This document shows, in pieces, positions 54,910 through 61,941 of a stretch of 64,000 bases of DNA. The stretch is from assembly GCA_004519485.1 (NCBI GenBank), contig CP038125.1:310001-374000 (forward strand), written 5' to 3'. Every line of letters starts with the position of its first letter. The first letter of the stretch is position 1. Source of the stretch: Nannochloropsis oceanica. Lineage: Eukaryota; Sar; Eustigmatophyceae; Eustigmatales; Monodopsidaceae. The translations under genes and the position numbers were made by a program. The notes under the pieces were generated by a model. The model did not search any database and was not told the origin of the DNA. It worked only from the letters and a program-made list of their open reading frames with translations.

Positions 54910-57900
54910 ATGCAGGTGGAAACGTCTACCGCCTTATCCGGCCAATCCTTCATGGAAGACTCTACAGAGGATCTCCCAGCCTTGCCCGCAGACCACAAAT
55001 TCTACCTCTACAGCCTGATCATAAGCAGCACCAGCGCCTTGATAGGCTTGATATGCGCACTCGTCATCATTGGACGCCTCAGAGGATGGCTTTGTATCCG
55101 ACGTGGTGGTAGAGGCTGCTCCTCCTCTGCCTCCTCTGCTTCCAAACCTGTCCCCAAACCCCGGAGAGGCACCCTTGCCTCCCTTCTCCACTTCCTCCTC
55201 CTCCGCCTCTTCTCTTTCAACGCGTTGTATGCCGCGGCATTTTCCCTCTTCTCCATCACTGAGGTCATATACCTCCGCGTCCATCACCTCTCCCTCCCGT
55301 CCTTTTTTGGTGACGCCTCCTCCACTCTCTCTCCCTCCTCCCCCTCCTCCTCCCTCTCCTCCTCCTCCTCGTCCTTGGGAAAATGGGAATCCATCTCTAC
55401 GGACCTCCTCTTTTGGCTGCAAGAACTTGCTTTAATTCCCGCCTTTTTCCACGTCGTCCTGGCGTGGGTCTTCCATGAATACATTGTCCACCATCGATCC
55501 CCCTCTGTTCTTGAAAACTTGGTGAGACGTCGCCTTTGGTTCGTAGTCACTGTCGGCCTCTCCCTCACCACCGGTATATCAGCGTTGTGCTTCTACTTGA
55601 TCGGAAAAGAGGGAGGTGTGAGGGAGAGAGGGAGGGAAGGAGCGGTGTTGAAACTTGTAACGACGGTGGCCTCATTGGGGGTGACTGGGGGATTGTACTT
55701 GCACACGGTCGTGGCGTGGTGGAGGGGGAGCAGCCATAGTAGGAGCAGCAGCAGCAACTGGATCAGTAGCAGAAGTGACAATTATGGAATACCGAAACAA
55801 GAGGAGGAAACGAAGGAGGACCCGCTGCATCTCCCCCCCCTCGAGGACCGTGACCCGTCCCTCTTTCCCCCCCTCCCTCGCCTCACCTTCACCTCCTCCA
55901 TCTCGGCCGTCCGTCAGGCCAGCACCACCTACCTCCGTCGTCCCCTTTGGAGGCTTGTGCTCCTCTTGGCGTGCTTCCTCTTCATGTGGACATGGGCACT
56001 GGTCACTGAGACCCGATCCGTCCGTGCCGTGTTTGGCCCAGACGAGGGAGGGAGGGAGGGAGGGAGGGAGGGCGGGCGCTCGACAGGGGACATGCCATTC
56101 ATTCTCATGACAATTGTAGATGCCCTGGTGCTCGGAAACGTGTTTTTTTATCTCTCTCCTTCCACGTTATGGAAGAGGAGGCAGCGGGCTAGAAAACGGA
56201 GGCGGCGGTTGAGGCAACAGCGACTGTTGCTCCTCCAACGGCAGGTAAAGGAGTTGCAGCTAGAGCAGCAGCGGCAGCACCAGCAACAGCGGCAACAACA
56301 GGAGACAAAGAGGGGAGGAGTATTGACCTTGGATGAGGAAAAGAGGGAAAAGGAGGAGGAAGAGATCCAGGAGATGGCTGGTGGTGACCACGCTGCCCAT
56401 GTTGCTGCGCCTGCGAAGACCACCACACCACCCCCGCCCGCCCTCCCTCCCTCCCTCCCTCCTCCTCAAAACGAATTTCGCATTTTTGTGTCAACCTTCA
56501 ACGCAGGCTCTACACGTCCTATGACGGCCTTGGGACCATTGGAGGAGTGGATTCCCTCGTCCTCCCTCCCATCCTCGTCTTCCTCCCGTGTCTGGAGGGA
56601 GGGAGGGGGGCAGGGTGAGGGCGAGGGAGGGAGGGAGGGAGGGTTTGACATGTATGTGCTCGCGCTGCAGGAATGCATGGTTTTGGAGGAACTCAAGGAG
56701 GCGGTGCTTGCACGGCTGGAGGAGGGAGGGGGGAAGGAAGGGAGGGAGGGAGGGTGGGCGGTGGTGGCAGAAAATGTCTGGAGCACCAACGGGAACATTG
56801 CATTGCTCCTCTATGTGAGAGAGGAGGTCGTGAGGGAGGGAAGGTTTGAGGTCCTGCCTTTGGGGAGGGCTCGATTGAATCTGGGGGTGAGTGTAGGGGT
56901 GGGAAAGCTACCGAATAAGGCAGCGGTGGCGATCGCCTGCCGCATCGACCACAGGAGCGTGGTTTTTGTGTCGGCCCATTTCGCGGCGGACAAGCATGGA
57001 AAGGAGGGGGGAAAGGCGCGGGTGAGAGATGTAATGAGGTGCTTGAAGGGGATGAGGGTGGGGAGGGAGGGGGAGGAGGTGGATCTTGAGCATGCGTTTC
57101 ACCATGTGGTGTTTTGTGGGGATTTGAATTTTCGAATTAAGTTGAAGCCGGAACTGGTTTTGGAGAAGCTCAATGCGTCGGTGAGGAAGGAGGGATTGGG
57201 GGTAAGAAAGGAAGCATTCTCAGCTGCGGCTTTGGCCATTTCTCACACGCCTTGCCCTCCTCTGCTTTCTCTTGATGCCGAGGGAGGGAGGGAGGGAGGG
57301 AGGGAGGGAGGAGGAGGCTTGATATGTCCCATGAGGCTCAAGAGATATAAGGAGATGCTGCAGGTGCGAGAGGAGGAGGAGGAGAAGGAGGAAGAGGAGG
57401 TGGGAGGACGAGGACAAGGACGAGATGGAGAAGGACGAGATGCCCCGCTGGAGATCGTGGTGATCAGTGGGAAAGAGGAGGAGGACGAGGAGGAAGTTTT
57501 GGAAGGGAAAAGCGAGAAGAAAGAGAAGGTTTCGTTCTCTCCTTTCCCCTCCTCCCCCTCCTCCTCTTTCTTCTCTCCCCCTCCTCCTCCTTCAGCAGTC
57601 TCTACTTATGTTACAACACATCGGGTGGAAGGGGGTAGGGAGAGAAGGAGGGAGGGAAGAGTGCATCCTTGTTATGCGTCCGCTCTTGCGGCTCTTCTGA
57701 AGGAGCTGCAGGAGGAAGCGAAGGAAGAAAGGGAGAAAGAAGAGAAGGGGAGAGAGGAGAAGGAGGAGGAGGAGGAGGAGGAGGAGGAGGAGGAGGAGGA
57801 GGAGGAGGAGGAGGAGGAGGAGGGGAGAGAGGAGGAGGGGGAGGAGGAGGGGGAGGGGGAGGAGGAGGAGGTGGTGATGGAAGGGGCCTCGATCGAGCAA

Positions 57901-59368
57901 GTGCCAAGCCAGGACAAGGAAGAGAGTAAGGACGGAAAGAAGGAAGGGCACGAATCCGACGGTGGCGCCTCCTTCCTCCGCAGTTGCTGGCAGTGGGTGT
58001 ATGAGCACGATGAGCTCACCCGTGTGATGACGGAGGAGAAGATCGTGTTTCATGCTTTTAGGGAAGGAAAATTGTGGTTCCCCCCTTCCTTCCGATGGGA
58101 GCGAGGAGCCAAAGCTGATTACACCGCTGTGAAAAAAGGAGGGGGAGGGGGAGGGAGGGAGGGAGGGAGGGAAGGTGGGGGGGCGTTTGACGGTTGCTTC
58201 ACCCTCTACAAGACCTCGGAGGGCGCGTTGAAAGGCTCACGACCCCCTTCATATACGGATCGGATCCTCGTACACTCCTTGCCTGACCTAAGAGGAGGGA
58301 GGGAGGGAGGAGGAGGGAGGGAGGGCGGGCGGGCAGAGCTACGGATGGAGAGCTACGATGTGTGTGAGGAGATGACGGGGAGTGACCATCGACCAGTTGC
58401 TGCTGTCCTGTCCCTCTTGGTTGATCGCACCTCCCTCGCGCCCTCCATGGCTTCCTCGTCTTTGTCCTCTGCCATTGCTGATGGAGAGGAAGGGATGGAG
58501 GGAAAGGCCATTGCCGCTGCTGCTGCTGTTGTTCATAAGACTCGCAAGGTCTGTCTGGTCTTGTCGGAGCTTCGTTTCATCTCTCATGCTCATGCCTTTG
58601 GAGGAGGGGAAGAGGGAGGCAGGGAGGGAGGGTGGTTGTCCTCATGGGGCAGGAGATTGAGTGCGTTGGGGGGCCTGGTGGGAGGAAGGGAAGGAGGGAG
58701 GGAGGTGAGGAAAGTGGTGGTGCATTACCCCTTGGCGATGGAGGGGAGCGAGTGGATGAATGAAAGGAGACATAGGGAGATGATGAAAGAGGGGGTGGAG
58801 GCCGGGTTTGCTTTTGGGAGGAAGAGGGGGAAGAGATGGGGAAGGGAGGAGGAGGAGGAGGAGGAGGAGGCGGGGGGAGTGGGAGGAGGAAGAAGAGGAG
58901 GAGGAGGAGGAGGAGGAGAAAGAGGAGAAAGACGACGAAAAGGAAGTGAGGCTGGCAAGAAAGAGGAGACGGAGTTGGAGTCGTGTGATGAGGGAGCAGC
59001 AGCATCATCACTTGGAAAATGTCCATCGGCTGTGCGTGAAGGATGGGGGGGAGGGCGGGAGGGGTGGAGGGGTCTTCACCTTCTCAGCGGCCGTGGAGGT
59101 GGGGAGGGAGGAGGGGAGAGAAGACGAGGTGCCAGTGTATGCGGTGTTGAGGGTGATGGATCGGAAAGGAAGAGAGGAGGTGGGGCAAGGTGTCTTGTGC
59201 TTAAGGGAAGTTTTTGAGACGTCGAGGAGGGGAGGGAAGGAAGGCGTGCCGATCACGATGGATGTGACGAACGGTGGGAAGTTCATGGGCGTGCTGACGT
59301 TACAAGTGGAGGGATGGAAGATGGCCAGGAAGGGGGAGAAGAGAAGAGGAAGGGTGGAGGAGTGTTGA
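54910..59368 (+). CDS. Seven-transmembrane receptor-like/inositol polyphosphate 5-phosphatase fusion
   Basis: One very long exon. Seven hydrophobic segments lie at about residues 31-55, 92-116, 165-193, 208-231, 245-270, 345-368 and 394-416, then a basic/glutamine-rich linker. From about 520 a 5-phosphatase domain follows: EFRIFVSTFNAGS, YVLALQECMVLEEL, FVSAHFAADKHG, HHVVFCGDLNFRI (near 735), PPSYTDRILVHS (near 1112) and TGSDHRPVAAVL (near 1157). All signature blocks are present, so phosphoinositide or inositol-phosphate 5-dephosphorylation is expected. The main frame ends at 59217 after 1,435 residues. The next frame, ending at 59368, reads like the end of a C2-type fold (VFTFSAAVEV, VGQGVLCLREVF, GGKFMGVLTLQVEGW). 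A change of one base, possibly at the 7-G run 59045-59051, would join them. Poly-Glu and E-G-G-R tracts are inserted. The start is uncertain (a second ATG lies at 54952). Confidence 0.85.
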
Positions 59369-60172: not shown

Positions 60173-61941
60173 ATGGAATCAGACGAGACCAACGATGCGA
60201 CATTGATGATACCTAATCCTGTCACTGCGAATGACATTGCCGAAGAACCACCGCCAGCATCGCCCGCAGGAGAGCCAAGGCCTTTAGAAGATGGGGAGGT
60301 TGACGTATCTTCCCCTGCTCAGGTGGACGCTGGCGCGGCAGCCACCGCCATGGCTGCGTTGTGGCACCTTCCCATACCACACGGTCTGAATTTTGAGGCC
60401 TCAAGCGGAACAGCGGTAGTGTGCGAGAGCATTCAAACCTTTGAAGGCAGCAGCAATAGCAAGACGACGGGGCCTCGCATATTCAACAACGTCGTCAAAG
60501 CCGTGCGTTTCTCCCCAGATGGCACCTGTCTACTCACTTCGTCCGAAGACCACATCCTCCGTGTGTTTGAAGTCCCGCATCACCTTGTTTATGATACCCC
60601 AACCAGCTTCTCTGTTACTGCTGCCGCAGCAGCAGATCCCGACAGCAACAGAATCAATAGTACCGTCAATGCTAGCAACGGTAACGAATGGCAGCCCTGC
60701 CTTGCCTGTCCTGAAGGTGAAACTGTCTATGACCAAACCTGGTACCCCTTGATGAATGCTCGTGCCGATCCTTTGACTGCCTGCTTTATCAGCAGCAGTC
60801 GCGATCACCCGATTCATTTATGGGACGCATTTACCGGCCAAATCCGCGCTTCGTATCGCGCGTACGACCACATGGACGAACTGGCCTCGGCGCACTCCTT
60901 AGCATTCTCCCCATTTGGCGATAAGATTTTTGCGGGCTTTGAGCGGATGGTCCGGGTATTCGATACGGCGACACCGGGGAAGGACTTCGACGAACGCCCG
61001 ACGAGGCCGACGAAACGGAGTAGGTGCGGAGGCCAAAATGGAATTATTTCCACTATTTGTTTCAGTCCTCAGGATGCAGCGACGGGGATGTATGTGGCCG
61101 GATCGTTTGCAGGGTAAGTTTGGTCGCCAGGTGATGAAAGGAGAGTGGGAAAAAGGGGGCTATGTCTTTGTCTATATATCTATATTTTGTTGTTTGTTGT
61201 TGTGTTTGTTGATTTGTTGGTGTGGGTGTGGGTGTGGGGGGGGGGGTGCCTGCACCTGCGTGTGAATACTTACTTATTATTCATGTGCCTGTGTCAACTT
61301 CAGCACACGCGTGTGCCAGTCTCATTTTACCTTATAATGAGTATCCACAAATTGTACTCTTTCCGTCCTTTCGTTTCAGATCTATGGCCCTTTACGACTA
61401 CCGGATGAAAGGCGACGCCCTCCTTTCCTGGCCTTCTCCACACAATGGTCAAGGGATCACTACTCTCCGTTTATCGTATGACGGCCGCCTTCTCTTTTCT
61501 GGAGCACGCAAGAACGACTGTGTGCATTGTTGGGACTTGCGGAAGGGTTCGCTGCTTTCCTCCTTTTGGAGGGACGCATCCAGCAATCAGAGACTTGGGA
61601 TTGATCTCGACCCCGCGGGACGGTATATGGCGACTGGGTGTAGGAAGGGAGGGGAAGAAGGGAAAAGGGGGGCATTGGTATATGATTTGAGCACAGGGCA
61701 GGAGGTGGGAGGGCTGGGGCTGATGGAGGACACGGTGAGTGATGTGAGCTTTCACCCGTATGCGGGTTTAGTGGCGGCTGGAATGGGAGAGAGGCACTTT
61801 GATGTAGAGCACGAGGATAATGAGGAGGATGAGATGGTTGTTGAGAAGCAGAAAGCGAGGAGGCGGAGTGGGGTGCGTCTATTCCAGGTGCCACTGGCTG
61901 GAGCGCAGAAGGGGGAGGTTGGAGAGGGGGAAGGGGAGTAA
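60173..61941 (+). CDS. WRAP53: Telomerase Cajal body protein 1 / WRAP53 WD40 protein
   Basis: Exons 60173-61113 and 61380-61941 join in phase to 500 residues. This WD40 protein binds the CAB box of small Cajal body RNAs and telomerase RNA and directs them to Cajal bodies. Diagnostic blocks are FSPDGTCLLTSSEDHILRVF, GETVYDQTWYPLMN, SRDHPIHLWDAFTGQIRASY, RAYDHMDELASAHSLAFSP and GGQNGIISTICFSPQ. After the intron come GARKNDCVHCWDLRKG and LDPAGRYMATGCRKG. The DHPIHLWDAFTG and YRAYD stretches are specific to this family rather than WD40 in general. The N-terminal 60 residues are acidic and disordered-looking, as usual. No oddities are seen beyond a charged insert near the end. Confidence 0.93.

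Follow-up and report, generated by a model that had tools for sequence, protein, structure and literature searches.

A seven-transmembrane protein with its own 5-phosphatase: a probable GPCR-INPP bigram in Nannochloropsis oceanica

A gene on the plus strand of Nannochloropsis oceanica contig CP038125.1, at positions 54910 to 59368 of a 64,000-nucleotide stretch (310,001 to 374,000 of the contig, called the window below and numbered from its first base), is predicted to combine a membrane receptor and a phosphoinositide phosphatase in one protein. A preliminary description of this gene had called it a G-protein-coupled receptor (GPCR) bigram, in which a seven-transmembrane (7TM) part is joined to an inositol phosphatase, and our analysis bears this out. 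Judged from its sequence, the gene probably encodes a GPCR-inositol polyphosphate phosphatase (GPCR-INPP), composed of an N-terminal 7TM receptor of probable Dicty_CAR-like ancestry, a cytosolic 5-phosphatase, and a conserved C-terminal tail. This reading is supported by a Dicty_CAR match in the paralogue on contig C17, by the lack of any transporter match, and by the repetition of the 7TM-5-phosphatase order in five paralogues. The predicted features are as follows, with TM for transmembrane segment.

54910 to 59217, plus strand: single open reading frame of 1435 amino acids, with the 7TM module, a linker, the 5-phosphatase, and the first half of the C-terminal tail
55015 to 56154, plus strand: seven predicted transmembrane segments (hydropathy, positive-inside charge, paralogue alignment A1, TM7 motif)
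55015-55071, 55195-55251, 55405-55461, 55534-55590, 55645-55701, 55954-56010, and 56098-56154, plus strand: the individual predicted TM segments
56473 to 58425, plus strand: inositol polyphosphate 5-phosphatase domain, broken up by G/E/R-rich repeat-encoded inserts (PF22669 and PDB matches; the outer limits are the first and last motifs)
57118 to 57132, plus strand: signature motif 1, GDLNF, within VVFCGDLNFR (motif check)
58240 to 58269, plus strand: signature motif 2, RPPSYTDRIL (motif check)
58381 to 58398, plus strand: catalytic SDHRPV motif (motif check)
58507 to 59368, plus strand: conserved C-terminal tail common to the paralogues (blastp of the second part, first part by eye, TRF)

The frame runs uninterrupted for 1435 codons, from the ATG at 54910 to a stop codon that ends at 59217, and in the genomic sequence it holds both the 7TM part and the phosphatase. 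The two halves had been placed in the same exon, which is right insofar as they share one genomic frame. Positions 59218 to 59368 lie in another. Many GGAG/GGA repeats between 55316 and 58944 give rise to inserts rich in Gly, Glu, and Arg; GREGG occurs nine times, and these three residues make up 35% of the protein.

On the Kyte-Doolittle scale with a 19-residue window, seven peaks of at least 1.49 were found before residue 430 (residues 36-54, 96-114, 166-184, 209-227, 246-264, 349-367, and 397-415), confirming the seven hydrophobic segments that had been noticed ahead of the 5-phosphatase. Three other peaks reach at least 1.2, all of them at or below 1.37 and located in the phosphatase and the tail. 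Close to the membrane, the intracellular loops and the C-terminal side carry 25 Lys and Arg residues against 2 Asp and Glu, whereas the N-terminal side and the extracellular loops carry 12 against 13. This bias across the loops predicts an N-out/C-in topology and therefore a cytosolic enzyme, so that hydropathy and the charge rule together give the seven segments and the cytosolic C terminus expected of a GPCR-INPP. The last segment contains the sequence TIVDALVLG, and its D-A/S core is common to TM7 of all six members of the family described below.

The 5-phosphatases are recognized by the signatures GDxN(F/Y)R and P(S/A)(W/Y)(C/T)DR(I/V)(L/I) together with other catalytic motifs and NKG(A/G)V. 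All eight motifs checked were present in the window protein and in the right order, as had been claimed, and the enzyme is therefore predicted to be active. One position is altered: NKAAV in the window protein corresponds to NKGAV, NKGGV, or NKGMV in those paralogues for which the pattern could be located. The Pfam match to PF22669 (E 2.5e-25, 90 bits against a cut-off of 27) covers residues 556-755 plus a second stretch further on, which in the genome search corresponded to profile positions 239-287. By phmmer the best PDB match was SHIP1 (3e-6), and the nearest solved relatives are SHIP1, SHIP2, and the type II enzyme INPP5B. The catalytic domain and its motifs are as in SHIP1/SHIP2 and INPP5B/OCRL, the window protein differing from these in its long repeat-encoded inserts; none of them is known to have a 7TM part. 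The same Pfam scan gave no PIP5K domain, and we reject the identity of the protein as a GPCR-phosphatidylinositol phosphate kinase (GPCR-PIPK).

To place the gene among its relatives, we searched all six frames of the genome (29,264,788 bases in 32 contigs) with PF22669 and obtained 17 exon matches at nine loci, counts that are lower bounds. The stretches around the other eight loci were examined in all three frames of the gene strand, with extra upstream DNA for the locus on C18. According to hand-made gene models, the phosphatase is preceded by a 7TM part at six of the nine loci, that in the window included, and the recurrence of this order at five other loci speaks against a chance association of the two halves. 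The paralogue on C2 (L025) occupies one frame of 1404 codons, with six peaks of at least 1.6 and TM3 placed by alignment. The one on C18 (L023) shows six peaks and a further hydrophobic stretch in L031, while on C26 (L026), C17 (L027), and C8 (L028) the 7TM part and the phosphatase are spread over several frames, which were read by eye. A profile made from the six 7TM parts and run over 1973 frames of 16 loci recovered the five paralogue loci, as it should by construction. The remaining three loci, on C22 (L024), C3 (L029), and C4 (L030), contain 5-phosphatase sequence, but the 9.5, 7.5, and 7.5 kb examined around them, respectively, yielded no 7TM part, and they were not counted as bigrams. 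The six-row profile gave nothing at E ≤1 on C22 and C3. On C4 it matched upstream of the phosphatase over 58 residues only, with an E value of 0.0043 that became 0.83 once the window row was left out, and after inspection of the frames we judged this match to be due to chance.

The identity of the 7TM part as a receptor was approached through these paralogues. The 7TM blocks of the C17 paralogue, its exons joined by hand, matched PF05462 (Dicty_CAR) in Pfam with an E value of 1.5e-7 and 31.3 bits, above the cut-off of 21. Dicty_CAR is the slime-mould cAMP-receptor family. Six shuffles of the C17 blocks that kept the block composition were made, and none of the four that were given to Pfam matched Dicty_CAR. 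Weak Dicty_CAR matches also came from uncut frames, namely from one of three C17 pieces (E 0.2) and from the C18 frame (E 0.3, its only Pfam match); the uncut C8 frame gave none. For the link between the window copy and its paralogues we used alignment A1, which consists of TM blocks (all seven for C26, TM3 to TM7 for C18) and replaced a poor multiple alignment that included the loops. With the loops cut, a leave-one-out profile of the five paralogues scored 20.4 bits on the TM blocks of the window protein, against a maximum of 7.4 in 2000 shuffles. Therefore, while the window 7TM part matches no GPCR family profile of its own, it can be connected to Dicty_CAR in two steps, from paralogue to family and from window to paralogue profile. 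We consider the kinship of the window 7TM part with those of the paralogues likely, though the sequence evidence for it is not overwhelming. Three of the paralogues also carry a pair of cysteines that is a hallmark of GPCRs, one in TM3 and one in a Cys-Trp of extracellular loop 2: C17, C18, and C8 have both the loop-2 Cys-Trp and a Cys where TM3 begins. The loop-2 Cys-Trp is thus found in three of the six family members and is missing from the window, C2, and C26 proteins; C2 and C26 may or may not have the TM3 Cys.

A good number of results weigh against a receptor of this kind. Of the two halves for which a profile search had been proposed, only the phosphatase matched a family; the window 7TM part gave no GPCR family in Pfam at E values up to 10, and the same holds for five of the six trimmed 7TM sequences, the window included (the trimmed input held only TM3 to TM7 for C18 and C26). 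Neither the window part nor the six-row profile found a credible match among PDB chains by sequence. The genome, searched exon by exon in all six frames, had no match to Dicty_CAR, as would happen if individual exons are too short to be recognized. When the loops were kept, the leave-one-out score fell to 10.7, which 2 of 1995 locally shuffled copies equalled or exceeded (1995 of the 2000 shuffles were scored). Residues 1-430 of the window protein gave nothing at E 1 by tblastn against the paralogue loci, and a genome six-frame search with the C17 7TM sequence retrieved C17, C18, and C2 (E 0.015 and 0.03 for the last two) and not the window. Within residues 1-440 cysteines occur only at positions 49, 62, 70, 227, and 355, leaving no Cys between TM2 and TM3 and no Cys-Trp in loop 2. 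The AlphaFold model of residues 23-440, made without an alignment, was too poor for use (pLDDT 50.9, pTM 0.31), and among the 77 Foldseek matches that it gave at E up to 10 none was at or below 0.001. To these must be added the GGAG/GGA repeat inserts throughout the gene and the frame change near its end.

Some of these observations would suit a 7TM part that senses nothing and that serves as a membrane anchor to tether the 5-phosphatase; it could have arisen by decay of a GPCR or be a seven-helix protein of unrelated origin. The missing TM3/loop-2 Cys pair, the lack of a recognizable GPCR family match, and the weak pairwise similarity to the paralogues (blastp E 0.006 at best, besides the empty tblastn search) all point in this direction. 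On the other hand, the seven segments, their topology, and the TM7 D-A/S motif have all been kept, one paralogue is recognizably Dicty_CAR, and a single helix would presumably suffice for tethering, and we regard a mere anchor as unlikely. A transporter or channel is far harder to reconcile with the data. The only hint of one is a stray Neur_chan_memb match of the window protein (E 0.42, below the Pfam cut-off) that spans TM7 and the charged linker, whereas the six trimmed 7TM sequences gave no transporter family at E values up to 10 and Dicty_CAR was the only family above the cut-off among them. A match of the 7TM segment to a transporter or another non-receptor family had been named as the result that would overturn the bigram; no such match rose above the cut-off, and we reject this explanation as highly improbable. 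We also reject, as having very little chance of being correct, the idea that two adjacent genes, one for a 7TM receptor and one for a 5-phosphatase, were joined into one frame by read-through in the assembly. The stop-free GGAG/GGA repeats do make long frames easier, yet five paralogues at other chromosomal places have the same order, one of them in the single frame of 1404 codons, and fused proteins of this form have been published for Nannochloropsis gaditana and oomycetes (PMC5784254).

A GPCR-INPP thus remains our preferred identification, and proteins of this name have a short published history. They were defined by van den Hoogen et al. (mBio 2018, PMC5784254), who counted seven in Phytophthora infestans and who limit them outside the oomycetes to N. 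gaditana; that alga, they report, has seven of these genes and lacks GPCR-PIPKs. The preliminary description had expected that the gene would extend the class to photosynthetic stramenopiles; in this it was wrong, having been anticipated both by the N. gaditana genes and by GPCR-PIPKs in the stramenopile alga Aureococcus, which are mentioned in the same paper. A literature search on GPCR-INPPs and on Nannochloropsis GPCRs or inositol polyphosphate returned, as far as the records it gave go, no report beyond PMC5784254 and PMC6033456. Compared by architecture as described, and not by sequence, the GPCR-INPPs of N. gaditana and oomycetes resemble the window protein in having an N-terminal 7TM part and a C-terminal inositol polyphosphate phosphatase. 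Both algae also have a small GPCR-INPP family, with seven genes published for N. gaditana and six found here, and no GPCR-PIPK was found in either. The window gene is thus probably a further member of the published kind, from the same genus as N. gaditana, and the finding confirms and slightly extends the published one. Our analysis adds the cAMP-receptor-type link, a C-terminal tail common to the family, and a genomic setting with G-alpha, RGS, and PIP5K loci in which models of phospholipase C and inositol trisphosphate (IP3) receptors had no match. A word search of the main text of PMC5784254 gives neither "cAMP receptor" nor "C2 domain", so this paper apparently describes neither the link nor the tail.

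The 7TM part of the C17 paralogue resembles the Dictyostelium cAMP receptors (PF05462) to the extent that it lies above the family cut-off, a level that the window copy does not attain; the cAMP receptors (CARs) are not known to carry a phosphatase. The GPCR-PIPKs, such as RpkA of Dictyostelium and the Phytophthora GKs, likewise combine a 7TM receptor module and a phosphoinositide enzyme in one protein. Their kinase makes phosphatidylinositol 4,5-bisphosphate [PI(4,5)P2], whereas the phosphatase of the window protein would remove it.

If the window protein is a GPCR-INPP, it would sit in a membrane with its enzyme on the cytosolic face, where a ligand or another stimulus at the 7TM part could change the activity or the position of the phosphatase. 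The phosphatase would take the 5-phosphate off PI(4,5)P2 or related phosphoinositides and so lower them. The signal may reach it directly or with the help of the one G-alpha detected in the genome. Models of GPCR-bigram action set out in a review include direct activation, cleavage, and G-protein-dependent action (PMC6033456), and ligand control of the fused enzyme is treated as an open question in the parts of both papers that discuss it (PMC5784254, PMC6033456).

As for the partners of such a protein, the genome has one G-alpha gene, with two exon matches above the cut-off and four weaker ones elsewhere, as well as two RGS loci and five PIP5K loci. None of the five PIP5K loci matched the six-row 7TM profile and no frame listed there has more than two hydropathy peaks; the five-row profile gave one match, at chance level and on the opposite strand (E 0.79). 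That no 7TM part was detected at the PIP5K loci is in line with the report that N. gaditana lacks GPCR-PIPKs. The models PI-PLC-X, PI-PLC-Y, and RYDR_ITPR (IP3 receptor/ryanodine) had no match in the genome, in exon-by-exon searches that had no positive control and do not establish absence. In oomycetes, phospholipase C seems to be absent, at least in its stereotypical form, according to the relevant section of PMC6033456. Receptors with a phosphoinositide phosphatase of their own could bypass the relay from G protein to phospholipase C. That the six cAMP-receptor-like 7TM/5-phosphatase proteins are the main receptor-controlled phosphoinositide route of this alga, ending or reshaping PI(4,5)P2 signals directly and not via G protein and phospholipase C, is a conjecture that we hold to be quite doubtful. 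The GPCR-INPPs are known but little studied, and an alga that combines a small genome with six of these genes, and in which no GPCR-PIPK was detected, would lend itself well to testing them.

The C-terminal tail continues beyond the stop codon of the long frame. Its first part lies in that frame and was aligned to the paralogues by eye; its second part (about 58985-59365) lies in the frame 58808-59368 and matched C2, C17, and C26 by blastp with E values of 0.002, 0.04, and 0.16, respectively. Since conserved tail sequence occurs in both frames, the frame must change in or near the GGA-rich tract at 58817-58944, and the end at 59368 given by the preliminary description is reasonable. The switch could be an intron or a sequence error in the repeat, both of which are possible; 71 GT-AG pairs could join the two frames. 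In Pfam scans of five tails, those of the window protein and of four paralogues, no domain exceeded the cut-off, the best being Tim54 in the C18 paralogue (E 0.0049, below the cut-off). The tail may conceivably have a C2-like fold.

Some further observations concern the paralogues and the neighbourhood. In the presumed introns of the paralogues, in contrast with the repeats of the window gene, the pyrimidine complement of GGAG/GGA seems by eye to be abundant. The C3 locus (G000:C3:821500-829000) is OCRL-like: a single 832-codon frame encodes the 5-phosphatase together with an ASH (E 1.6e-34) and a RhoGAP domain (E 1.4e-20). At the C22 locus (G000:C22:262000-271500) the GDxN position reads GGMWHG, and this may be a degenerate or differently spliced member. 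An RGS-domain match (L044, G000:C2:95851-96168) lies ∼6.8 kb from the GPCR-INPP frame on C2; the stretch examined there has no hydropathy peak in frames of at least 120 amino acids. Downstream of the gene, a plus-strand frame at window positions 60173-61117 encodes a WD40-repeat protein (PF00400, E 3.9e-10).

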